From the NCBI RefSeq assembly GCF_016863035.1, contig NZ_BOOC01000026.1:1-64000 (forward strand): 64,000 nucleotides of DNA. Reading direction: 5' to 3'. Every line of letters starts with the position of its first letter. The first letter of the stretch is position 1. A program made the position numbers and the translations under genes. This document shows, piece by piece, positions 26,013 through 37,432 of the stretch. The notes beneath the pieces were generated by a model. It was not told the DNA's origin. It searched no databases and worked only from the letters and a program-made list of their open reading frames with translations. This DNA is from Microbispora corallina. Lineage in GTDB: Bacteria; Actinomycetota; Actinomycetes; Streptosporangiales; Streptosporangiaceae.

Positions 26013-26768
26013 ATGTCTGGAAAGCCGCGTGTCCTGGCCGTGCAGAGCGGACACGAGAGCGGGCCCGCCAGGTTCGGCGCGTGGCTGGCCGAGGCCGGGC
26101 TGGTCGTCGAGACGGTCGCGGGCTTCGACGAGCCGCCGGCGTCGCCGCTCGGCCACGACGCATTGGTCGGCCGTGACGCGCTGCCCGGCTATGACGCGCT
26201 GCTCGTGCTGGGCGGCGGCTACCTGCCCGACGACGATCATCGGGCGCCGTGGCTGCCCGCCACCCGCGCCCTCGTCGCACGGGCGCTGGAGGCGGAGGTG
26301 CCGCTGTTCGGAATCTGCCTGGGCGGCCAGATGCTCGCCGCGGTGGCCGGGGGGAGGGTGCGGGGCGACGCCGGGGCTCCGGAACAGGGCAGCACCCCCG
26401 TGACCATCAGAGCCGAGGCGGCGGGCGACCCCCTCTTCCACGACCTGCCGGGCGTCGTCCCGGCGATCGAGCACCACGTCGACGCGATCACCGAGCTGCC
26501 CCCGGGCGCGGTGTGGCTGGCGGAGACGGAGCGGTGCCCCTATCAGGCGTTCCGGGTGGGCCGCCGGGCCTGGGGCGTGCAGTTCCACCCCGAGGTCGGG
26601 CCGGAGCGGATCCGCGGGTGGGACGCGAGCACGCTCAGGCGGCAGGGCTTCGATCCGGACGTGCTGTACGGGGCGGCGGTGGCCGACGACCGGGTCTCCG
26701 CGCCCGTCTGGCGCACGGTGGCCACCCGCTTCGCGGAGGTCGTCCGCGGCGCCCGCGCCACCGCCTGA
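26013..26768 (+). CDS. Class I glutamine amidotransferase-like protein
   Basis: A 251-residue GMP-synthase-like amidotransferase domain without a synthetase partner. The catalytic nucleophile is Cys102 in LFGICLGGQ, and His192 and Glu194 are in VQFHPEVG. Stand-alone proteins of this type hydrolyse glutamine or gamma-glutamyl compounds. It starts 50 bases after the quinone reductase on the same strand and might be cotranscribed, but no functional link is apparent. Confidence 0.85.
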   Translation: MSGKPRVLAVQSGHESGPARFGAWLAEAGLVVETVAGFDEPPASPLGHDALVGRDALPGYDALLVLGGGYLPDDDHRAPWLPATRALVARALEAEVPLFGICLGGQMLAAVAGGRVRGDAGAPEQGSTPVTIRAEAAGDPLFHDLPGVVPAIEHHVDAITELPPGAVWLAETERCPYQAFRVGRRAWGVQFHPEVGPERIRGWDASTLRRQGFDPDVLYGAAVADDRVSAPVWRTVATRFAEVVRGARATA

Positions 26769-26876
26769 CGCGTCCCCGCCTGGAGCGGCACGCTGGTCGC
26801 GTCCCCGACTGTCATGTCTCGTAGACGCGGCGACGCCGGCCGCGGACGCACGCCTCTTCCGGGGTGAGGCCGTGGA

Positions 26877-27863
26877 TCAGGAGGTCCCTAGCTGGGAGCC
26901 GATCCAGCGGCCGATGCCGGCCAGCGCCCTGTCCAGTCTGCCGGGCGGGCAGGCGCTGAACCGCAGGGAGTTCTCCGCGATCGCGGCCAGGTCCGAGGGG
27001 GACAGGCCCAGCCGGCGCCAGGCCAGGTCGTACTCGCCGACCAGGCTGGTCTCGCAGAACAGCGGGCAGTCGCTGTTGAGGGTGACCGGCACGCCCGCCG
27101 CGAGGAGCCGTGGGAGGGGGTGCGCGTCCAGCGACGGGCTGACCCGCAGAGCGAGGTTGGAGGTGGGGCACACGTCCAGGCAGACACCCCGTTCGGCCAG
27201 CAGCGCGAGCAGGGACGGATCCTCGGCGGCCGCGACTCCGTGCTCCACCCGGCGCGCGCCGAGCACCTCGACGCACGCGCGCACGCTGGAGGCGCCCGCG
27301 CCCTCGCCGCCGTGGGGGACTGCGGCGAGCCCGGCATCGCGGGCGCGCGCGAAGACGTCCGAGAACGCCTCGGCGGGGAAGCGCGCCTCGTCGCCGGCCA
27401 GCCCGAGGGCGACCACCCCCTGGTCGCGGTAAGCGAGGGCCAGGCCGAGCGAGCGCTCGGCGTCGGCCATGGGCAGCCCCCGGTTCACTCCCACGATGAC
27501 TCCCGCGCCGCTCGCGGGCGACGAGCCCGCCCGCAGGCCGTCGAGCACGGCCTCCAGCACGCCCTCCGCGGGACCGAGCCTGCCCGCGTACGTCGGCGGG
27601 ATCACGTGCACCTCGGTCCAGACCACGCCCTGGGCGGCCGCGTCCTCGACCAGCTCACGGGCGATCCGGCGCAGGTCGTCGAGCGTGCCGACGAGGTCGC
27701 GGGCACGTTCGTAGGCGCCGACAAAGGCGCCCAGCCCGTCGTACGGCCCGCGCGGCGGGAGCGGCAGGCCGTACGCGTCGGCGAACTCGGCCGCGGTGTC
27801 CCGCCGGATCGCGCCTTCGAGGTGGAGGTGCAGCTCCGCCTTGGGCAGCGCGACCAGGTTCAC
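26877..27863 (-). CDS. Adenosine deaminase-like amidohydrolase, atypical active site
   Basis: A 328-residue metal-dependent amidohydrolase and the last gene of the nine-gene catabolic operon; its GTG start overlaps the aldehyde dehydrogenase stop (GTGA). Metal and catalytic residues align with adenosine deaminase: His12 and His14 (HLHLEG), His184 and Glu187 (HGGE), His208 (VEHG) and Asp265. The next residue, normally a second Asp that contacts the purine N7 (NxDDP), is Cys266 here (NSDCPLF). This suggests the substrate is not adenosine, but another amino-bearing ring or nucleoside-like compound handled by this operon. Confidence 0.85.
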   Translation of the reverse strand: MNLVALPKAELHLHLEGAIRRDTAAEFADAYGLPLPPRGPYDGLGAFVGAYERARDLVGTLDDLRRIARELVEDAAAQGVVWTEVHVIPPTYAGRLGPAEGVLEAVLDGLRAGSSPASGAGVIVGVNRGLPMADAERSLGLALAYRDQGVVALGLAGDEARFPAEAFSDVFARARDAGLAAVPHGGEGAGASSVRACVEVLGARRVEHGVAAAEDPSLLALLAERGVCLDVCPTSNLALRVSPSLDAHPLPRLLAAGVPVTLNSDCPLFCETSLVGEYDLAWRRLGLSPSDLAAIAENSLRFSACPPGRLDRALAGIGRWIGSQLGTS

Positions 27864-29257
27864 TCGTGCCCCATGTAGACGGTCTTGCTCCAGGTGTAGA
27901 AGTCGAGTGCGGCGGTCCCCTGCTCCCTGAAGGTGTTGGACGAGGAGTCCTTCACCCCGCCGAACGGCACGTTGAGGTCCAGGCCGGTGGTGGGCCGGTT
28001 GACCTTCACCACGCCGACCTGGGCGTGCGCGGCGAAGTGGTGGGCGGCGGCCAGGTTCTGCGTGCAGATGCCCGCGGTCAGCCCGTAGCGCGAGTCGTTC
28101 ACGCGGTCGAGACCCTCCTCGTACGACTCGACGCCGAGCACGGCCACCACGGGACCGAAGATCTCCTCGCGCACCACGGAGGAGTCGTGGCCCAGGCCCG
28201 TGAGGACCGTGGGGGGCAGGAACTGGCCCACCGGGGGCCGGCCGCCCGCGACGAACTCGGCGCCCTCGGCCCTGGCCGTGTCGATCGCCGCCACGTCCGC
28301 GGCCAGCTGCTGCTCGCTCACCACCGGGCCCATGGTGACCGACTCGGCCTCCTTGGCCAGCGCGCCGAGGAACGCCTCCCGAACACCCGGCGTGCAGTAC
28401 ACCCGGGAGGTCGCGGTGCAGGCCTGCCCGGTGAGGCCGAAGGCGCTCGCGGCGACGACCCTGGCGGCGGCGTGCGCGTCGGCGTCGTCCAGGATCAGGT
28501 AGGCGTTCTTGCCGCCCATCTCCAGCTGCACCCGCGCCCGGCGTTCGCTGAGGATCCGGTGCAGGCCCAGGCCGACCCGGGTGGAGCCGGTGAAGGAGAG
28601 CGCGGCCACCCGGTGGTCCCTGGCCAGCGCGTCGCCGACGACCGAGCCCGGGCCGTGCACCACGTTCAGCACGCCCGCGGGCAGCCCGGCCTCCACGAGG
28701 GCGTCGCCGAGGTGCGCGACCGACAGCGGGGTGAGCTCGGCGGGCTTGACGACCACGGCGTTGCCGCTGATCAGCGCGGGGGCGAGCTTCCACGCGGGGA
28801 TGGCGATGGGGAAGTTCCACGGCGTGATCAGCGCGGCGACGCCGAGCGGCTCGTGCCTGGTGAAGATCGTGGTGCCGGGGAGCGCGCTCGGCAGCACCTC
28901 GCCGGAGGTGCGCCAGCCGAGCGAGCCGAAGAAGCGCAGCACGTCGACGGCGCGGCGGACCTCGCCCGTCGCCTCGGCGAGGGTCTTGCCCTCCTCGCGG
29001 CTGAGGTCGGCGGCCACCTGGGCCTGCCGGGAGCGGAGCAGGTCGGCGGCGTCGAGCAGGATCGCGCCGCGCGCGGGTGCGGGCATGGCCGCCCAGGCGG
29101 CCTGGGCCTCGACGGCCGCCGTGAGCGCCGCGTCCACGGCCGAGGCGTCGGAGGAGGGGGTCACGGCCACGACCTCGCCGGGGTCGGCCGGGTTGCGGCG
29201 GGCGATCTCGGGCTCGCCCACGCGCGCGCCGCCGATCAAGTTGAGGACGTCGGTCAC
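27860..29257 (-). CDS. Aldehyde dehydrogenase (semialdehyde dehydrogenase type)
   Basis: A 465-residue NAD(P)+-dependent enzyme. It shows ITPWNFP, the Glu motif LEMGGKN (about 250) and the catalytic Cys in GLTGQACTATSR (about 285). The C-terminal pattern VKVNRPTTGLDLNVPFGGVKDSS...REQGTAALDFYTW resembles 2-oxoglutarate-semialdehyde and related semialdehyde dehydrogenases. Together with the DHDPS-type enzyme two genes upstream it probably oxidises the aldehyde released by that lyase or dehydratase. It starts 14 bases after the SDR stop and overlaps the deaminase-like gene by 4 bases. Confidence 0.88.
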   Translation of the reverse strand: MTDVLNLIGGARVGEPEIARRNPADPGEVVAVTPSSDASAVDAALTAAVEAQAAWAAMPAPARGAILLDAADLLRSRQAQVAADLSREEGKTLAEATGEVRRAVDVLRFFGSLGWRTSGEVLPSALPGTTIFTRHEPLGVAALITPWNFPIAIPAWKLAPALISGNAVVVKPAELTPLSVAHLGDALVEAGLPAGVLNVVHGPGSVVGDALARDHRVAALSFTGSTRVGLGLHRILSERRARVQLEMGGKNAYLILDDADAHAAARVVAASAFGLTGQACTATSRVYCTPGVREAFLGALAKEAESVTMGPVVSEQQLAADVAAIDTARAEGAEFVAGGRPPVGQFLPPTVLTGLGHDSSVVREEIFGPVVAVLGVESYEEGLDRVNDSRYGLTAGICTQNLAAAHHFAAHAQVGVVKVNRPTTGLDLNVPFGGVKDSSSNTFREQGTAALDFYTWSKTVYMGHE

Positions 29258-29271
29258 AGGATTGACTCCAA

Positions 29272-30033
29272 TCAGAGGGTCCGGACGAGCCCGCCGTCGC
29301 AGCGCAGCGCGGTGCCGGTGATGTAGGAGGCGGGCTCGCCGCAGAGGAAGGCGGCGACGCGGCCGAACTCGTCCGGCCTGCCGTACCGGCCCGCGGGGAT
29401 CGTCGCGCGCGAGGCCGCCTCGACCTCGGCCGCGGACCGCCCCTCGCGTTCGGCGGCGGCCGCGTCGAGCCGCGCGACACGGTCGGTGGCGATGCGGCCG
29501 GGCAGCAGCAGGTTGACGGTGACGCCGTCGGCGGCCACCTCGGCGGCCAGCGTCTTGAGATATCCGGCGAGCGCGGCCCTGCCCAGGTTGGACAGGGCGA
29601 GGTTCGGCAGCGGGGCGGCGACCCCGCTGGACCCGATGGCGAGGATGCGGCCCCAGCCGCGTGCGCGCATGCCGGGCAGGAGCCGGGAGACGAGCCGGAC
29701 GTGCGGCGTGACCAGCGCGTCCACGGCTGCGGCCACATCGCCGCCGCTCATCTCCGCGGCTGATCCCGGCCGGGGGCCCGGGCCGTTGAGCACGAGGACG
29801 TCGGCCTCGCCGGCGGCCGACAGCAGGCGCTCGACGCCGTCCGGGGCCAGCAGGTCGGCTTCGACGGCGGTCGCGCCGGGCAGTTCCGCGGCGATCGCCC
29901 GGGCCTGGTCCCCTCTGCGGCCCGTCACGACGACGCGGGCCCCCTCGGCCGCCAGGGCCCGGGCCGTCGCCTCGCCGAGGCCGCCCGTGGAGGCGCAGAC
30001 GAGCGCCGTCCTGCCGGTCAGTCCGAGGTCCAT
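29272..30033 (-). CDS. Atypical short-chain dehydrogenase/reductase
   Basis: A 253-residue SDR-fold protein. The nucleotide-binding motif is ASTGGLGEATA near the N-terminus, and DGGLVRTL ends the protein like a FabG-type tail. The canonical YxxxK catalytic pair is missing: the equivalent segment reads LALSNLGRAALAGYLKTLA, a form (SN..R) seen in a minor actinobacterial SDR group. The Ser before it (IGSSG) is kept. It overlaps the DHDPS-like gene by one base. It may use a different catalytic set, or act as a binding protein. Confidence 0.85.
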   Translation of the reverse strand: MDLGLTGRTALVCASTGGLGEATARALAAEGARVVVTGRRGDQARAIAAELPGATAVEADLLAPDGVERLLSAAGEADVLVLNGPGPRPGSAAEMSGGDVAAAVDALVTPHVRLVSRLLPGMRARGWGRILAIGSSGVAAPLPNLALSNLGRAALAGYLKTLAAEVAADGVTVNLLLPGRIATDRVARLDAAAAEREGRSAAEVEAASRATIPAGRYGRPDEFGRVAAFLCGEPASYITGTALRCDGGLVRTL

Positions 30034-30905
30034 CACCGCACCGCCGTCAGGTGCCGCTTGAGCTGTTCGTGCAGCGACTCCGGCAGCGAGGCCGCCGGCG
30101 GTCGCACGCCCGACTCCAGGAAGAGGCCGCGCTGCCGCAGGCACTCCTTGCGGATGGCGAGCGCCACCCTGGCCTGCTGCTCGAAGTTGACCAGCGGCAG
30201 GTACGGCAGCCACGCCTCCCGCGCCGCGTCGTACCCGCCCTCCCGCCAGGCGCCGACGCAGGCGATGAGCCCTTCGGGGAACGAGAAGCCGGTCATCGCG
30301 CCCGCGGCGCCGCAGGCCAGTTCGTCCAGCAGGCCGAGCCCGCCCAGCCCGCCGAAGACCGGCACGTCCAACGCGGCCGTCAGCGTCGCCACGGCGACCG
30401 GGGTCGGCGGCGCCTCCGCCTTGACCGCGACCACGAACTCCAGGCCGCGCAACGCGGCCGCCAGCGCGTCGGCGCCGATGGCGACGCCGCTGACGAGCGG
30501 GTAGTCCTGCACGACGAGGCCGGCGCCGGTGGCCTCGTGCACCGCGCGCAGATGCCCGGCCAGCACGTGCGGGTTGGCCGAGTTGACCTGCACCATCGCG
30601 CCCGCGAGCCGGTCGCCCGCGACCTCCTGGGCCAGCCGCACCTCCTCCACCACGGGTGCGGTGCCCAGCGACGTGGCGCCCACCACCAGCGGCAGCCGGG
30701 TCGCGTCGGCCACCGTCTCCAGGACCGTGCGCCTCTCCTCGGAGGACAGCTGCGCCGCCTCCCCGAAGACGCCGAGCACGGTGAGCCCGGTCACCCCCGC
30801 CCGTTCGTAGTGCTCGACGAGCCTGGCCAGGCTCTGCTCGTCGACGTCGAAGGTGGATCCGGTGAACGGCGTCGCTACGACGCCCCAGACACCCGGCTGC
30901 AGCAT
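30033..30905 (-). CDS. DHDPS/N-acetylneuraminate lyase-family aldolase or dehydratase
   Basis: A 290-residue (beta/alpha)8 class I enzyme. The Schiff-base Lys162 (VVAVKAEAP) and Tyr135 (QDYPLVSG) are present. The TT pair of true dihydrodipicolinate synthase (G-T-T-G-E) is replaced by Val46-Phe47 (GVFGE) and its substrate-binding Arg is absent, so lysine synthesis is unlikely. Relatives include hydratase-aldolases and 5-keto-4-deoxyglucarate dehydratase, which work with semialdehyde dehydrogenases like the one encoded two genes downstream. It shares one base with both neighbours. Confidence 0.88.
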   Translation of the reverse strand: MLQPGVWGVVATPFTGSTFDVDEQSLARLVEHYERAGVTGLTVLGVFGEAAQLSSEERRTVLETVADATRLPLVVGATSLGTAPVVEEVRLAQEVAGDRLAGAMVQVNSANPHVLAGHLRAVHEATGAGLVVQDYPLVSGVAIGADALAAALRGLEFVVAVKAEAPPTPVAVATLTAALDVPVFGGLGGLGLLDELACGAAGAMTGFSFPEGLIACVGAWREGGYDAAREAWLPYLPLVNFEQQARVALAIRKECLRQRGLFLESGVRPPAASLPESLHEQLKRHLTAVR

Positions 30906-31684
30906 CACTTTCCCTTCCACACGGGCTTGCGCTTCTCCTGGAAGGCCAGCACGCCCTCCGTGGCGTCCTCGCTGTCCAGCGCCTCCATCAGGGCCGGGAG
31001 GCGTACGGCGCGGGCCTCGCGGGCGCTCAGGTGCGCGGTGCGCTGCACCATCTGCTTGACCGCCCGAAGCGACGTGGGCGAGCAGGCCAGGACGTCGGCC
31101 ACCCACCGATCCACGGCGGCGTCCAGCTCCGTGGCCGGGACCACCTCGTTCACCAGGCCCATCCGCTCCATCTCGGCCGCGCGGGCGCGCCTCCCGGTGA
31201 GCAGCAGCCCCATCGCCTGGTTGTACGGCACCCGCCGGACGAGCTGCGTCACCCCTCCGTCGAGGGCGATGCGGCCCACCCGTGGCTCGGTCAGCCCGAA
31301 CTGGGCGTGTTCCGCCGCCACGACGATGTCGCAGCCGAGGACCATCTCCATGCCGCCGCCGAGCGCGTAGCCGTTGACTCTCGCGATCACCGGGACGTCC
31401 AGGGTGGTGCGCAGGGACAGGCCGCCGAAGCCGTCGGGGTCGAGCGCGGCCCAGTACTCCAGGCCGGTCTTGCCGATCCCGCCGGCCGACATGTCGGCGC
31501 CGACGCAGAAGGCCCTGTCTCCCGCTCCGGTCACCACGACCACCCGTACGTCGCGGTCGGCCTCGATCCGCTCCCAAATCTCGACGAGCGCGCGGTGGGT
31601 TTTCTCGTCCACGGCGTTGAGCACCTCGGGGCGGTCGATGGTGACCCGCGCGACGTGCTCCACGACCTCGACGTGCACCGTCAT
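30905..31684 (-). CDS. Enoyl-CoA hydratase/isomerase (crotonase)
   Basis: A 259-residue crotonase. The oxyanion-hole segments are GAGDRAFCVGADM and GYALGGGMEMVLGCDIV, and both acidic residues used for hydration are present (GGGMEM and FGLTEPRVG). It overlaps the CoA-transferase gene (ATGA). It probably hydrates or isomerises the unsaturated acyl-CoA made after CoA transfer. Confidence 0.9.
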   Translation of the reverse strand: MTVHVEVVEHVARVTIDRPEVLNAVDEKTHRALVEIWERIEADRDVRVVVVTGAGDRAFCVGADMSAGGIGKTGLEYWAALDPDGFGGLSLRTTLDVPVIARVNGYALGGGMEMVLGCDIVVAAEHAQFGLTEPRVGRIALDGGVTQLVRRVPYNQAMGLLLTGRRARAAEMERMGLVNEVVPATELDAAVDRWVADVLACSPTSLRAVKQMVQRTAHLSAREARAVRLPALMEALDSEDATEGVLAFQEKRKPVWKGK

Positions 31685-32859
31685 CGCAGGACCCCCGCCC
31701 GCACGAGCGCCTCGATCTGCTCCACGGTGAAGCCGTGCTCGGCCAGCACCTCGGCGTTGTGCTCGCCGAGGCGCGGCGGGGCGTGCCGCACCTCCATCGG
31801 TGAGGCGGACAGCCGGATCGGCGCGGACAGCGCTCTGACCCGCCCGGCCACCGGGTGGTCCATCTCCAGGATCATGCGGTTGACGGCCGTCTGCTCGTCG
31901 GCCAGGGCCTGCTCCAGGGTGCGGACGGGGGCGCACAGGATGTCCTGCCCCTCCAGCCGCTTGAGCCAGTACTCGGTGGTGTCGGCGGCGAAGCGCTCTC
32001 GGAAGATGGCCTGCAGTTCGGGCCGGCGGGCGAACTGCGCCTCCTGGGTGGCGAACTCGGGCCGCAGCGACAGGTCCTCGTCGAGTTCGAGCGCCACGCA
32101 GACGTCGCGCAGCGGGTTCTCCTTGAAGGCCCCGACCATGCACACGGCGCCGTCGGCGGTCGCGAAGACGCCGCTGAGCGGCATGGCGGCCCAGTTGATC
32201 TCGTAGCCGCGGTTGAGCTGCATACAGGCTTCCTGCATCTGCATGTGGAGCATCGAGTCGTACATCGTGACCTCGACCTTCTGGCCCTCGCCGGTCAGGT
32301 CGCGGGTGCGCAGGGCGAGCAGGATGCCTTGCATGAGGTGCATGCCGGTGGTGTAGTCGGCGAGCGTCGTCGGGTAGACCGACAGCGGCAGGCCGGGCGA
32401 CTCGCGGCGCCACATCACCCCCGAGAACGCCTGGGCGATCACGTCCTGGCCGCCCTTGTGGCTGTACGGGCCCTCGGTGCCGAACCCGGTGCCCGACGCC
32501 CAGATGACGCGGGGGTTGATCTCGCGCAGCCGCTCGTAACCGAAGCCCAGCCGCTCCATCACCCCGGAGCGGAAGTTGCTCACGACCACGTCGGCGTCGC
32601 GGGCCAGGCGGTAGACGACCTCCTTGCCCTCCTCGGAGCGGGTGTCGACGCTGACGCTCCGCTTGTTGCGGTTGATGGACAGGAAGATCGGGTTGTCCGG
32701 GCCGTCCCGGTCGGGGATGGAGCTTCTGGACAGGTCTCCCGAGCCGGGCCGCTCGATCTTGATCACGTCGGCGCCGTAGTCGCCGAGCAGCTGCGTGCAG
32801 CTCGGCCCCATGTACACCTGGGTGAAATCGAGGACGGTGATTCCTTCGAGCGGCTTCAT
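31681..32859 (-). CDS. CaiB/BaiF-family CoA-transferase (class III)
   Basis: A 392-residue class III CoA-transferase. The N-terminus VLDFTQVYMGPSCTQLLGDYGADVIKIERP is typical, and the catalytic Asp168 lies in TTLADYTTGMH. The family moves CoA between carboxylic acids, so the operon's substrate probably carries a carboxylate at this stage. Start and stop both overlap neighbouring genes by 4 bases. Confidence 0.92.
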   Translation of the reverse strand: MKPLEGITVLDFTQVYMGPSCTQLLGDYGADVIKIERPGSGDLSRSSIPDRDGPDNPIFLSINRNKRSVSVDTRSEEGKEVVYRLARDADVVVSNFRSGVMERLGFGYERLREINPRVIWASGTGFGTEGPYSHKGGQDVIAQAFSGVMWRRESPGLPLSVYPTTLADYTTGMHLMQGILLALRTRDLTGEGQKVEVTMYDSMLHMQMQEACMQLNRGYEINWAAMPLSGVFATADGAVCMVGAFKENPLRDVCVALELDEDLSLRPEFATQEAQFARRPELQAIFRERFAADTTEYWLKRLEGQDILCAPVRTLEQALADEQTAVNRMILEMDHPVAGRVRALSAPIRLSASPMEVRHAPPRLGEHNAEVLAEHGFTVEQIEALVRAGVLR

Positions 32860-34202
32860 GCCACGACCTCCGCGTTGGGGGCTGGGACGTCTCCGGGGTC
32901 GGCTCCCTGCGCGCGCATCCCCCGCTGGACCGCCGCGGGGTCGACCTGCCGCACGGTCACGCCGCCGTCCGCGGCGAGGGCCGCGGCCACGCCGGCCGCC
33001 TGGCCCATCGCCATGCACGGCGGGATCTCGCGGGAGATGCGCTGGGCGTCCGGCGTGGCCGAGTAGTGGCGGCCGGCCACCAGGAGCTGGTCGACCTGGC
33101 GGGGCAGGAGCGCGCGGTAGGGCGTGTAGTAGTCGCGGCCGCGGGCGACGGAGTCGGCGAAGTGCCGGCGGTTGACGATGTCGTCCTTGGTCACGACGTA
33201 CTCGCCGCGCAGGAGGCGCGTCTGCCGTACGCCCATCTGCTCGGCCACGTCCAGCAGGTAGCAGTTCTCGAAGCCCGGCAGGCTCTGCCTGACCTCGTCC
33301 ACGGCGGCGGCGATCCGCTCTCGCGCGTCGAACTCCGCATGGGTGAGCGACTCCGGATCCGCCCCGTCATAGCCCGACATATGCGGACAATTGCACCACA
33401 CGACGCCGGGAACCGGGGTCTTGAGCCACCACAGCTCCCAGGCGCCGCCGAGCAGCCGTTTGATCTTGCGGTTGACGGCCCTGGCCTCGCGCGGGTTCTC
33501 CTGCTCGAACCGCTCGGCGGCGGCGGTGTCGACGCCGCCGAGCCGGAACACCAGTGTGGTGAGGTAGCTGTCGTGCGCGTAGTCCGCCCCGGCCCGGGCG
33601 GCGACGTCGATGTCGCCTGTCGTGTCCACGACCACGTCGGCCAGGATCGCCTGCGGGCCGGCCTTGGTCTCGGCCACCACCCCACGCAGCCGGCCGTCGT
33701 CCACGATCGGCTGGGAGAACCATGAGTGGAGGCGCAGATGCACCCCGGCCTCGCGGACGAGGTCGTTGGAGACCCGTTTCCACCCGTCGGGGTCGAAGGC
33801 GACGGCGTAGCAGATCGGCTTGGGACTGGTGTGGGAGTGGAAGTCGAAGGTGCCCCAGCGGCCCCACTTGTTCCACATCTCCACCGAGGCGATCCGCTCC
33901 TGCTCGGGCGGGTAGACGGCCAGGCCCAGCTTGGCCAGCCGCTCCACGTACTCCGAGACCAGGCCGGTCACGCTGATCTCCCGGCCGTTCACCATGTCGT
34001 CGAGCACCAGCACCATGCCGCCGGACGCGAGGCCGCCCAGCGCGGCGTACCTCTCCAGCAGGGTGACGCTCGCCCCGGCGCGGGCCGCGGCGACGGCGGC
34101 GCTGACGCCCGCCGGGCCGCCGCCCACGACGACGACGTCGCTGGTGCGGACCACGGGGGCCCTCAGCTCGTCGGACGAGACCTTGAGATCTGACAGTTGC
34201 AT
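32856..34202 (-). CDS. FAD-dependent oxidoreductase
   Basis: A 448-residue flavoprotein of the FAD_oxidored type. The dinucleotide-binding motif is VVVGGGPAGVSAAVAAARAG at about 29-48, followed by GGLASGGMVLVLDDM. The second half contains VVDTTGDIDVAARAGADYA and the C-terminal FAD segment EIPPCMAMGQAAGVAAALA. No iron-sulfur or quinone domain is visible. The ATG at 34202 is chosen because GAGGA lies 8 bases upstream; a GTG 15 bases earlier is possible. In this operon it may perform the first oxidation of the imported compound. Confidence 0.87.
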   Translation of the reverse strand: MQLSDLKVSSDELRAPVVRTSDVVVVGGGPAGVSAAVAAARAGASVTLLERYAALGGLASGGMVLVLDDMVNGREISVTGLVSEYVERLAKLGLAVYPPEQERIASVEMWNKWGRWGTFDFHSHTSPKPICYAVAFDPDGWKRVSNDLVREAGVHLRLHSWFSQPIVDDGRLRGVVAETKAGPQAILADVVVDTTGDIDVAARAGADYAHDSYLTTLVFRLGGVDTAAAERFEQENPREARAVNRKIKRLLGGAWELWWLKTPVPGVVWCNCPHMSGYDGADPESLTHAEFDARERIAAAVDEVRQSLPGFENCYLLDVAEQMGVRQTRLLRGEYVVTKDDIVNRRHFADSVARGRDYYTPYRALLPRQVDQLLVAGRHYSATPDAQRISREIPPCMAMGQAAGVAAALAADGGVTVRQVDPAAVQRGMRAQGADPGDVPAPNAEVVA

Positions 34203-34221
34203 CACGCGATTCCTCACTCGC

Positions 34222-35502
34222 TCACTCGCCCGCGAAGGCTCCGCTCGTCCTGCGGGCGGCCAGGTAGAGCACGACGCTGATCAGGGACAGAGCGGCCACA
34301 TACACCGGGAAGATCCAGACCAGCGCGTTGCTCTGGAGCCAGATCAGGAGGTACGACGCCGTGCCGCCGAAGACCGCGACCGCGACGCCGTACCCGAGCG
34401 CCACGCCGGTGGCGCGGCAGTACTTGGGCATCAGCGAGGTGGCCACGAGGTTGTAGAGGGTCATGTTGAGCACCAGCACGATCGACCCGCCGAGGACGAC
34501 GCCGAACAGGCCGCCCAGGCCGGGCCGGCTGTAGAGCAGCATCAGGAACACGGCCGGCACGGCCAGCAGCCTGGTCACGGTGAACGTCCGCGACAGCTTG
34601 AACCTGTCGGCCAGCCATCCCACGAGCGGCGACCCGGCGAGCAGGACCAGGCCGAGCGCGGTGGAGGCGGCGAAGACCGGGGTCGGGTCCTCCTTGAAGG
34701 TGCTGCGCGCGAGGTTGGGCAGCCCGACGGTCCAGGCGTAGTTGTAGGCCTGCGCGGCGCCCACCACGAAGATCATCGCGACGAGGCCGAGCCAGTGCCT
34801 GCCCACACCCCGCCAGACCGACGTCTCGCCGCGCTCGCTCTCGTGCAGCGTCTCGGGCAGGGCGCGCCGCAGGTAGAGCACGAGCAGGCCGATCACGGCG
34901 CCTATGACGAACGGGACGCGCCAGCCCCAGTCCTGCATGGCGGCCGCGCCGAGGACGAGGCTGGTGAAGAAGCTGACCAGCGAGGCCAGCACGATGCCGA
35001 GGTTGACGAACAGGCTGATGTAGCCGGCCGCCCGCGCCTCGCGTCCCGGCGGCGACACCTCCACGGCGTACGCCGTCGACAGGGGCGCCTCGATGCCGGT
35101 CGACACGCCCTGGACCAGGCGGCAGACCAGCAGGATCACCCCGGACCACACGCCTATCTGCTGGTAGGTGGGCGCAACAGCGATCACCAGCGTGGTGAGC
35201 GCCATCAGCGCGACGGAGAGGATCATGATCTGCCGGCGGCCGACTCGGTCGGCGACGGCGCCGAGCAGCACCCCGCCGAGCGGCCGTACGGCGAAGCCCA
35301 TCGCGAACACGGCCAGCGCGCTGAGCGTGGAGGCCACGGGATCGTGGGAGGGGAAGAAATGGGGGCCGATGTAGGCCGAGACGAGACCGAAGAGCATCCA
35401 GTCGTACCACTCGAGCGTGTTGCCGAGGCCGAGGCCGAGCATCGCGGTACGGGTGGTGGCCGGATTTTGGGCAGGGGAGGTCGAGGTAACGGTCGCGGAC
35501 AT
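34222..35502 (-). CDS. MFS transporter of the metabolite:H+ symporter type
   Basis: A 426-residue, 12-segment permease. LGNTLEWYDWMLFGL at about 25-40 and the loop GAVADRVGRRQIM are typical of MHS-family symporters that import carboxylates, betaines or aromatic acids. EAPLSTAYAVEVSPPGREARA follows in the first half. It is the second gene of the catabolic operon, 40 bases after the regulator, and should import its substrate. Confidence 0.9.
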   Translation of the reverse strand: MSATVTSTSPAQNPATTRTAMLGLGLGNTLEWYDWMLFGLVSAYIGPHFFPSHDPVASTLSALAVFAMGFAVRPLGGVLLGAVADRVGRRQIMILSVALMALTTLVIAVAPTYQQIGVWSGVILLVCRLVQGVSTGIEAPLSTAYAVEVSPPGREARAAGYISLFVNLGIVLASLVSFFTSLVLGAAAMQDWGWRVPFVIGAVIGLLVLYLRRALPETLHESERGETSVWRGVGRHWLGLVAMIFVVGAAQAYNYAWTVGLPNLARSTFKEDPTPVFAASTALGLVLLAGSPLVGWLADRFKLSRTFTVTRLLAVPAVFLMLLYSRPGLGGLFGVVLGGSIVLVLNMTLYNLVATSLMPKYCRATGVALGYGVAVAVFGGTASYLLIWLQSNALVWIFPVYVAALSLISVVLYLAARRTSGAFAGE

Positions 35503-35542
35503 GGCGATCCGCCTTTCATGGGGGTGTTTCCCGCCCGAGAGG

Positions 35543-36133
35543 TCACCAGGTGGGTGGTGTGATCACCCAGATCGCTGTGCAGACCTCGTCACCGGTGTTG
35601 GCGTACCAGTGCGGGATGGTGGATGAGTAGCGAATGGAGTCGCCTGGGCCGAGCTCGTACTTCACCCCGTCCAGGTACACATCCTTGTGTCCGGACAGGA
35701 CGATGCCGACCTCCTCCCCGTTGTGCGTGAACGGGGCGGCGCTGGTGTCGTGGCCGGGCTGGGTCTCCAGCCAGGTGACCTCCAGCGCGCCGTTGAGGTC
35801 AGGAGTGAGCAGCTCGTAGACCGCCGTCTTGTCCATGCCGTGGCCGTCGAGCCGCCGCCGTTCCGATCTGCGGACCAGCGGTGAGCGATGCTCCTCATGC
35901 ACCTGGAACAGCATTCCCACCGGAATGCCGAGCCCGTGCGCCAGTTGGACCAATGTGGAGAACGACGGGTTGGCCAGCCCTCGCTCCACCTGACTGATGA
36001 TGCCCGTGCTCAGCCCCGACAGCTCCGCGAGCCGGTCGAGGGTGAGCCCCCGCTCCTTGCGCAGGGAGCGGACGCGGGTTCCGACAGCACCGAGCATCGT
36101 CGCCAGGGACTCCGGTGTGCTGTCGCTCGTCAT
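35543..36133 (-). CDS. XRE-cupin transcriptional regulator
   Basis: A 196-residue regulator: an XRE helix-turn-helix at about 18-75 (GLTLDRLAELSGLSTGIISQVERG) and a small C-terminal cupin (about 120-192, FTHNGEEVGIVLSGHKDVYLDG, then YELGPGDSIRYSS). The cupin usually binds a pathway metabolite. It is the first gene of the nine-gene operon. The start codon is 6 bases after a -10 box, so the message should be leaderless. Confidence 0.92.
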   Translation of the reverse strand: MTSDSTPESLATMLGAVGTRVRSLRKERGLTLDRLAELSGLSTGIISQVERGLANPSFSTLVQLAHGLGIPVGMLFQVHEEHRSPLVRRSERRRLDGHGMDKTAVYELLTPDLNGALEVTWLETQPGHDTSAAPFTHNGEEVGIVLSGHKDVYLDGVKYELGPGDSIRYSSTIPHWYANTGDEVCTAIWVITPPTW

Positions 36134-36136
36134 GCG

Positions 36137-36150
36137 TTCATCCTAATGAA
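36137..36150. promoter_or_regulatory. Candidate operator over the -10 box of the catabolic operon
   Basis: TTCAT-CCTA-ATGAA is a perfect inverted repeat with 5-base arms that overlaps the -10 hexamer. Binding by the XRE-cupin protein would block its own promoter and the whole operon. Confidence 0.5.
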
Positions 36151-36167
36151 ACCGTCTTCACCGTCAA
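36140..36167 (-). promoter_or_regulatory. Promoter of the catabolic operon, leaderless type
   Basis: On the minus strand TTGACG (36162-36167) and TAGGAT (36140-36145) are 16 bases apart. Six bases separate the -10 box from the ATG at 36133, so transcription should start at the start codon. Confidence 0.7.
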
Positions 36168-36171
36168 TAGC

Positions 36172-36199
36172 ATGATGAAGATTTTCAATATGATGAAGA
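36172..36199. repeat. Direct repeats upstream of the catabolic operon promoter
   Basis: ATGATGAAGA occurs at 36172-36181 and again at 36190-36199, an 18-base period, in a locally AT-rich stretch just upstream of the -35 box. The repeats could be additional regulator sites. Confidence 0.55.
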
Positions 36200-36379
36200 C
36201 GCTCTCGGCGAGGCCCGGGCCGCACCTGTGCGGGGGGCAAAGTCCCGGCACCGGCAACCCCATGCGACCGCCGTACGTATAAGGAAGAGGGAACACGACA
36301 GGCAACGGGGGCATTCGCGGCGGGCTGCCGGCCACAAGCACGGACGGCCTGATGCGGATGAGGCGTGGGGGACGTGGCC

Positions 36380-37432
36380 ATGAGCCGTGACGATCGTGCG
36401 CGGGAGCGTGTGCGCCGGAGAGGGGTGGGGCGGCGCCGGGCGTTCCCGGGCCGCCACATGACGGGCGGCGCCGTCGCCGGAAGAGCGGGTGAGGGCGCGG
36501 AGACCGGAGCGGAGACGTCGACGAGGAGAGGGAGAGGCACGGGGCGGGCGTTCGCCGTGCGGCTCGTCCTGGCGGCCTGCGTCCCCGCGATGCAGGCGCT
36601 GGTCGGGTACGCGATCGGCGGCACGGTCCGCGAACGGCGGACCCGGCAGGAGATGGCCGCGATCAGCAGGCACCTGGCGGCGACCGCCGAGGGGCAGCTT
36701 CCCACGCCGGTGCCGCCGGGGCCGCTCGGCCCCGACACCGCCCGGCTGGTGGAGAGCATCAACGCCACCATCGAGCTGTGCCGGCGGCTGGGATGGTTCG
36801 CCTCCGACCTGTCCCACGAGATCCGCACCCCGCTCACCGCCCTGCGGGCCGAGCTGGAGGAGGCGGCCCTGAACCACGAGGACACCGACGTCCGGCAGCT
36901 GGTCAAGCGCACGCTGCCCAGCATCGACCGGGCCGACGCCGTGGTCGCGAGCATGCTCATGCTGGCCCGCCTCCAGGCGTGCACCGACAGGGAACGCGTC
37001 CGCGTCGACCTCGGCGACCTGGTCAAGAGCGAGGTCGACGGGCGGGAGCGTCTCCATCCGGTCACCATCCGGGTCGCCGGCCAGGTGGTGGTGCGGGCGG
37101 TTCCCGAGCAGGTGCGCCAGGCGATGACCAACCTGCTCGACAACGCCGAGCGGCACGCGCGCGCCCACGTGGAGGTCGAGGTGGCCCGGCGGGGCCGCAC
37201 GGCGCTGCTCGTCGTCGACGACGACGGCGAGGGCGTGCCCGAGGCCGACCGGCAGCGGATCTTCGACCGCTTCATCCGGCTGGAGGACAGCCGCCGCCGC
37301 GACGGGATGGGGGCCGGGCTCGGGCTCGGCATCACCCGGGCCATCGCCGAGGCCCATCACGGCGACGTCCGCGCGGAGGACCGGCCCGGGGGAGGTGCCC
37401 GCTTCGTGCTGCGCCTGCCCGCGGCCTCCTGA
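36380..37432 (+). CDS. Orphan histidine kinase with a minimal sensor
   Basis: A 350-residue kinase. The first 55 residues are basic and Gly-rich, followed by one membrane segment (VRLVLAACVPAMQALVGYAIGG, about 60-81). There is no recognisable extracellular sensor. The HisKA domain has His146 in SDLSHEIRTPLTAL, and the HATPase domain has the N-box (NLLDNAERHARA) and the G-box GAGLGLGITRAIAEAHHG. No response regulator is adjacent on either side. It could respond to a membrane partner. The start is uncertain: ATG at 36380 has a GGGGGA 8 bases upstream. Confidence 0.85.
   Translation: MSRDDRARERVRRRGVGRRRAFPGRHMTGGAVAGRAGEGAETGAETSTRRGRGTGRAFAVRLVLAACVPAMQALVGYAIGGTVRERRTRQEMAAISRHLAATAEGQLPTPVPPGPLGPDTARLVESINATIELCRRLGWFASDLSHEIRTPLTALRAELEEAALNHEDTDVRQLVKRTLPSIDRADAVVASMLMLARLQACTDRERVRVDLGDLVKSEVDGRERLHPVTIRVAGQVVVRAVPEQVRQAMTNLLDNAERHARAHVEVEVARRGRTALLVVDDDGEGVPEADRQRIFDRFIRLEDSRRRDGMGAGLGLGITRAIAEAHHGDVRAEDRPGGGARFVLRLPAAS

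Follow-up and report, generated by a model that had tools for sequence, protein, structure and literature searches.

Relationship to described systems

The carnitine cai-fix system of Escherichia coli (caiTABCDE/fixABCX) possesses a class III coenzyme A (CoA)-transferase, a crotonase, a flavoprotein of FixC-like fold, a ferredoxin partner, and a dedicated importer. This outline is shared by a nine-gene operon of Microbispora corallina, which lies on the minus strand of a 64,000-nucleotide stretch of contig NZ_BOOC01000026.1 (hereafter the window). The CaiA acyl-CoA dehydrogenase, the CaiC ligase, and FixAB have no counterpart among the nine genes, whereas genes for a dihydrodipicolinate synthase (DHDPS)-fold lyase, a short-chain dehydrogenase/reductase (SDR), an aldehyde dehydrogenase (ALDH), and a deaminase are added. 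We tentatively propose, with a little less than even confidence, that this is an inducible operon for the uptake and catabolism of a small carboxylic acid, likely a carboxylated N-heterocycle and often one with an exocyclic amino group, by a CoA-cycling, ferredoxin-linked route.

It is improbable that the operon encodes a carnitine- or betaine-type pathway, in which CaiB and a CaiD-like hydratase would cycle a trimethylammonium acid, with the flavoprotein and a ferredoxin replacing FixC/FixX and CaiA. The parts are alike in outline and the crotonobetainyl-CoA hydratase model gives the crotonase 178 bits, but 500 are needed, and the L-carnitine CoA-transferase model reaches 124 of the 413 bits that it requires. 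Neither an acyl-CoA dehydrogenase, nor an electron-transfer flavoprotein, nor a demethylating enzyme is found among the nine genes, and betaines would leave ring deaminases and the DHDPS-fold enzyme without a role. Since the carnitine-specific models fail, the operon was not filed as cai-fix despite the likeness. The initial annotation, made from the letters of the window, had placed the substrate as likely outside textbook pathways.

Benzoyl-CoA-type degradation proceeds through CoA activation, ferredoxin-linked ring reduction, and crotonase-type hydration or ring opening. The logic proposed for the window operon is alike (CoA, a ferredoxin-linked step, a crotonase), but benzoyl-CoA reductase subunits are lacking among the nine genes; the flavoprotein stands alone, and a CoA-transferase replaces the ligase. 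A likeness to the Rut/Pyd and hydantoin routes is seen in the ring deaminases encoded beside the core genes (flavoprotein, CaiB, and crotonase) of related loci and in the dihydropyrimidinase, racemase, and amidohydrolase genes that accompany DHDPS/SDR genes away from the core. In addition, a rut pyrimidine-utilization operon adjoins the core, immediately upstream of it, on a Rhizobium plasmid (L095:5672-8706). The nine genes, however, include none for Rut or Pyd enzymes.

In the hydroxyproline route (PMC4113996), a DHDPS-superfamily enzyme feeds alpha-ketoglutarate-semialdehyde dehydrogenase with a flavoprotein upstream; the description consulted here mentions neither a CoA-transferase nor a crotonase. 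For L-arabinose, a DHDPS-superfamily L-2-keto-3-deoxypentonate dehydratase is described (PMC6336799). The nearest functionally named relatives of the window lyase belong to the non-phosphorylative L-arabinose pathway, namely L-2-keto-3-deoxyarabonate dehydratase (PDB 3fkk and 7c0c), with which the lyase shares Gln at the Tyr position and Lys-x-Glu; the match is nevertheless only about 90 bits. It is quite improbable that the operon encodes a modified hydroxyproline or sugar-acid pathway in which the flavoprotein acts as an amino-acid dehydrogenase and a DHDPS-fold dehydratase or deaminase, followed by a semialdehyde dehydrogenase, leads to 2-oxoglutarate. The last two enzyme superfamilies agree with the published hydroxyproline route, but the nine genes include no sugar dehydrogenase, no acid-sugar dehydratase, and no proline-racemase-superfamily epimerase, the rest of the genome not having been searched for the latter. 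Moreover, those routes are not known to include a CoA-transferase or a crotonase, and the flavoprotein scores 293 bits with PF12831 as opposed to 27.0 with DAO, just under the cut-off of 27.9.

A keyword search of the open-access literature, which leaves most subscription papers uncovered, found no published pathway with this gene combination. The CaiB gene of PMC5789663 shares its operon with a gene for hydroxymethylglutaryl-CoA lyase and is unrelated. All of the enzymes belong to known superfamilies, and there is a real chance that the pathway logic is new.

Gene order and distribution

In named genomes, 486 relatives of the flavoprotein were confirmed, and the analysis kept the 80 best loci; these were chosen through the flavoprotein (FAD) gene and carry flanks of at most 10 kb per side. 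Automatic open reading frame (ORF) calls on these flanks include antisense artefacts (clusters c9 and c10), which were ignored. The FAD and CaiB genes are adjacent in 80/80 loci, and FAD, CaiB, and crotonase in 79/80. Contiguity from the FAD gene extends to the DHDPS gene in 70, to the SDR gene in 67, and to the ALDH gene in 59 of the 80 loci; 39 are contiguous from the XRE-cupin regulator to ALDH, and two contain all nine genes. By comparison, none of the 12 window genes flanking the operon was found in the 80 loci or in three further stretches at the thresholds used (E ≤ 1e-10, at least 45% identity, at least 50% length). One of the three, L107, probably comes from the same genome as L008 (Nonomuraea pusilla), a member of the family to which M. 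corallina also belongs.

The flavoprotein is present in three of 297 genomes of the Microbispora family and two of 296 genomes drawn from the phylum, its own genome being counted in both, and CaiB at E ≤ 1e-150 in three of 345 genomes of the order. Plasmid copies (62 records) occur in Rhizobium, Ensifer, Roseibium, Paracoccus, Chelatococcus, Caballeronia, Rhodococcus, Arthrobacter, and others. With its patchy occurrence, its plasmid copies, and a gene order that is kept where the flanks are not, the operon is distributed in the manner of a catabolic unit that moves horizontally, and its initial interpretation as a coherent catabolic operon is well supported. Conservation across Actinomycetota and Proteobacteria (flavoprotein identity between the two approximately 60-66%), together with this patchy and often plasmid-borne distribution, suggests that the operon probably serves a substrate that is common in soil and sea and has been missed by current pathway maps.

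The usual order in Proteobacteria is ATP-binding cassette (ABC) importer, FAD, CaiB, and crotonase with a ferredoxin gene near, followed variably by DHDPS, ALDH, and deaminase genes. The importer consists of an NMT1/THI5-like binding protein, an ATPase, and a permease, and stands in some loci for the major facilitator superfamily (MFS) transporter; its match to the SsuA family, at 56 bits, names no substrate. MFS, DHDPS/SDR, ALDH, and deaminase genes are each swapped or missing in some loci, and the ferredoxin gene of the core is absent from the window operon. The annotation of the nine genes as a complete route is not sustained by these results, and as a whole the earlier reading is partly supported. 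A second CaiB gene is present in L056, L071, L075, and L081, lying between the XRE and MFS genes, divergent from XRE, or by the ABC importer.

Flavoprotein and ferredoxin

A model of the flavoprotein based on 39 sequences has FixC and a geranylgeranyl-reductase (GGR)-like protein as its nearest Foldseek matches. Over the 50 Foldseek rows shown, TM-scores are below 0.5 by query length and up to 0.53 by target length, from which it follows that the match covers part of the flavoprotein; the predicted overall fold is of the FixC/GGR type. An earlier model from 17 close sequences (pLDDT 65) was too poor, and its Foldseek list has been superseded.

The FixC and GGR-like families use ferredoxin-type partners. 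A ferredoxin gene lies by the core in 14/14 proteobacterial loci and 43/80 named-genome loci, and directly after ALDH in 37/80. The protein is FdxA-like, with both of the members scanned passing the NF045480 cut-off. This association of genes suggests that the flavoprotein and ferredoxin may exchange electrons. In M. corallina, the ferredoxin would have to come from elsewhere in the genome, since the operon has no gene for it; one copy, at 73% identity, is found on another contig.

CoA-transferase, crotonase, and the likely end of the pathway

CaiB combines a match to PF02515 with Asp168, which we take to be the catalytic Asp of class III CoA-transferases and which is kept in 80/80 sequences (one locus dropped); it is thus assigned to that class. 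The two Glu residues presumed to be catalytic in the crotonase are present in 81/81 sequences, and the catalytic Cys of the ALDH is kept in 65/65.

The lyase departs from the canonical DHDPS-type aldolases, the active-site residues of which we take to be Thr-Thr, Tyr133, and Lys161. In 73/73 sequences (the window and 72 loci), the Lys is present within Lys-x-Glu, Gln occupies the Tyr position, and Val-Phe replaces Thr-Thr. Its nearest PDB entries are 3dz1, the closest solved relative, 3fkk, and 7c0c, and alignments reveal Gln-Asp-x-Pro and Lys-x-Glu in the lyase and in all three. It therefore carries the residue pattern of L-2-keto-3-deoxyarabonate dehydratase, the roles of Gln and Lys-x-Glu in that enzyme being assumed here. 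The retro-aldol reaction, one of two suggested for the lyase in the initial annotation, fits poorly with a dehydratase's pattern and was set aside. In five proteobacterial operons a canonical-type DHDPS is found instead (four by alignment, L096 by similarity).

The SDR-fold protein lacks the Tyr-x-x-x-Lys of classical SDR dehydrogenases, having Asn149, Arg152, and Ala or Ser at the Lys position in 71/72 sequences (one gapped); the Tyr and Lys are also missing in one Rhizobium relative. The ALDH is matched best among NCBIfam models by NF052305 (515 bits, cut-off 750) and NF042993 (444 bits, cut-off 770), and the best models for two scanned proteobacterial ALDHs are likewise those for 2,5-dioxovalerate and alpha-ketoglutarate semialdehyde, under their cut-offs. 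An ALDH of a different kind adjoins the core in L068 and L080; it has no NCBIfam match at E ≤ 1e-25, and its apparent resemblance to a known semialdehyde dehydrogenase type was not counted. A related ALDH gene lies beyond the rut genes in L095, at a distance of about 9 kb from that of the flavoprotein. Because of the dehydratase residue pattern of the lyase and the best matches of the ALDH, 2-oxoglutarate is the likely end of the pathway.

Four of five regions opened (L101, L102, L103, and L104) contain, at a site remote from the core, a window-type DHDPS gene paired with one for an SDR. The DHDPS type was judged by sequence similarity. Their neighbors are amidohydrolase, Asp/Glu racemase, dihydropyrimidinase, and nitrilase-like or glutamate-cyclase genes; the fifth region (Roseomonas) has neither an SDR gene nor such amide-type neighbors. 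These clusters probably encode another route that has not been described, acting on cyclic amides or amino acids.

Such pairs away from the core bear on the strongest rival to a single pathway, a composite of two modules under one promoter, with FAD-CaiB-crotonase-ferredoxin acting on one acid and DHDPS-SDR-ALDH with the deaminase acting on related but separate substrates as passengers. It is also favored by the lack, near the core, of DHDPS, SDR, and ALDH genes of the types sought in L009, L083, L084, L085, and L087. We nonetheless consider it unlikely, given the contiguity from the FAD gene to the SDR and ALDH genes reported above and the fact that the DHDPS and deaminase genes accompanying this one core differ in subfamily or family between loci.

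Deaminases

The window deaminase passes the NCBIfam adenosine deaminase (ADA) model TIGR01430 (263.8 bits, cut-off 216.55). The equivalent of Asp296, the second Asp of the DD motif and presumably the contact to purine N7 in ADA, is Cys. In the 120 closest relatives listed, out of a total of 4282, this position is Cys in 98, Gly in 19, Val in two, Ala in one, and Asp in none, and from its residues the window deaminase probably does not act on adenosine. Two observations weigh against this. A distant operon copy, L036, keeps the Asp (one of 12 aligned), and its loss is not unique to the operon enzyme: of the three read among four ADA paralogs elsewhere in the genome, two keep Asp-Asp, but the nearest (L119) has Ile.

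That an ordinary adenosine deaminase stands by chance at the end of the operon is very improbable. The TIGR01430 score and the Ile of the nearest paralog would be in keeping with this, whereas the consistent lack of Asp in the relatives listed, the 4-base overlap with the ALDH gene, and the existence of the other four paralogs speak against it. Furthermore, 19 of 42 ADA clusters (contig of at least 5 kb) have a longest contig equal in size to that of a flavoprotein cluster, which indicates that the ADA branch of the window goes with the operon. A purine-salvage reading of the gene was likewise rejected. The initial annotation had noted three enzymes without family-defining residues. This stands for the SDR, the lyase, and the Cys of the deaminase, with the reservations that the Gln pattern of the lyase is that of a known class and that the L036 deaminase keeps its Asp.

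An ADA-type gene is found in 11/80 loci, and L107 and L108 have none at the operon. The deaminases encoded near the core are ADA-like (11 loci), cytidine-deaminase-like with PCGxC (19), dCMP-type (two), and two kinds of amidohydrolase of the 8-oxoguanine/5′-deoxyadenosine deaminase group (four plus two), which together account for 38 of 92 loci (80 named, 12 plasmid), no locus being in two lists. This is a lower bound, as the search for amidohydrolases relied on similarity to a single family and, in six loci, on visual inspection; lineage and deaminase type are also confounded in the counts. The window deaminase gene is accessory, and other deaminase families lie near the core in other lineages. 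The cytidine-deaminase-like family (PF00383) comprises 92 proteins at E ≤ 1e-15 (L021:6599-7108 and relatives P0241-P0332), by their names mostly from Arthrobacter, and is apparently dedicated to the operon. An Arg four residues before the zinc Cys is present in 91/91 members in which the pattern was found, which would fit an acidic substrate.

Proposed pathway

We infer the substrate class, the chemical steps, and their order from gene association and residue patterns, which support the end of the pathway better than its beginning. The MFS transporter, or elsewhere the NMT1-type ABC system, would bring the acid in, and a hydrolytic deaminase, where needed, would exchange a ring amino group for oxygen. 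CaiB would then charge the acid with CoA that is probably taken back from a later product, as happens in carnitine metabolism. The flavoprotein, with an FdxA-type ferredoxin, might add or remove hydrogen at the C-C bond beside the CoA ester, after which the crotonase would add water to the new double bond or open the ring. The DHDPS-fold and SDR-fold proteins may dehydrate or deaminate the ensuing 2-keto acid to give 2-oxoglutarate semialdehyde, and the ALDH would oxidize this to 2-oxoglutarate. The XRE-cupin protein, probably the ligand sensor of the operon, would respond to the substrate or an intermediate. The catalytic residues kept in CaiB, crotonase, and ALDH, the deaminases near the core, the amide-type neighbors of the DHDPS genes away from it, and the rut operon in L095 support this scheme. 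Pyrrole-2-carboxylate, furoate, dipicolinate, the thiamine pyrimidine, and carboxylated cytosines were weighed by stoichiometry; they have no computed support, and none is claimed.

A bolder and rather doubtful extension is that the operon is an aerobic, oxygen-independent counterpart, for nitrogen heteroaromatics, of the benzoyl-CoA strategy. Following CoA transfer, a single FixC/GGR-like flavoprotein and ferredoxin would dearomatize or saturate the ring, the crotonase would hydrate it, and the Tyr-less Schiff-base enzyme would lead to 2-oxoglutarate semialdehyde, several unrelated deaminase families having been separately recruited for amino-substituted versions. Three handles on the operon are available, namely the likely end product 2-oxoglutarate semialdehyde, the flavoprotein-ferredoxin pair, and the apparently dedicated deaminase families, the substrate of which would name the operon's compound.

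Operon layout and neighboring genes

The ORF list and an assessment of start codons place nine minus-strand genes in 36133..26877 (Table 1), most with strong third-position GC. The eight junctions measure, in gene order, +40, +16, -4, -4, -1, -1, +14, and -4 bases, in agreement with the tight spacing on one strand described initially, and Pfam bears out the family assignments for all nine (XRE+cupin, MFS, FAD_oxidored, CoA_transf_3, ECH_1, DHDPS, adh_short_C2, Aldedh, and A_deaminase). The MFS protein scores 281 bits with TIGR00883, under the cut-off of 443.

Table 1. Features of the operon in the window, in order of transcription
Feature	Coordinates	Strand	Basis and remarks
Promoter-like site, TTGACG-16-TAGGAT	36140..36167	-	Match to sigma-70-like consensus alone
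XRE-cupin regulator (gene 1)	35543..36133	-	HTH_3 + Cupin_2; in 75/80 loci
MFS importer, metabolite:H+ symporter type	34222..35502	-	TIGR00883; in 70/80 loci
FAD_oxidored flavoprotein, core gene; FixC/GGR-like predicted fold	32856..34205	-	PF12831
Class III (CaiB) CoA-transferase, core gene	31681..32859	-	PF02515, 380 bits
Crotonase-fold enoyl-CoA hydratase, core gene	30905..31684	-	ECH_1, 205 bits
DHDPS-fold Schiff-base enzyme; L-2-keto-3-deoxyarabonate dehydratase residue pattern	30033..30905	-	PF00701
SDR-fold protein without the usual Tyr/Lys	29272..30033 (start may be 30036)	-	PF13561, 120 bits
Aldehyde dehydrogenase; 2,5-dioxovalerate/alpha-ketoglutarate-semialdehyde models nearest	27860..29257	-	NCBIfam
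Adenosine-deaminase-like hydrolase, accessory gene	26877..27863	-	PF00962, 252 bits

One sigma-70-like site was found in 26500-36600, as compared with 0.2 expected in shuffles, and it precedes gene 1. The -10 hexamer lies six bases before the XRE start codon, so that an mRNA from this site would be leaderless or nearly so. A scan of the operon region found no terminator-like site. Downstream lies a convergent glutamine-amidotransferase-like gene (26013-26768, +), within which ARAGORN calls a tRNA-Asp with anticodon ATC (26505-26603, +) that is probably a false positive. Directly upstream, a divergent gene encodes a histidine kinase (36365-37432, +).

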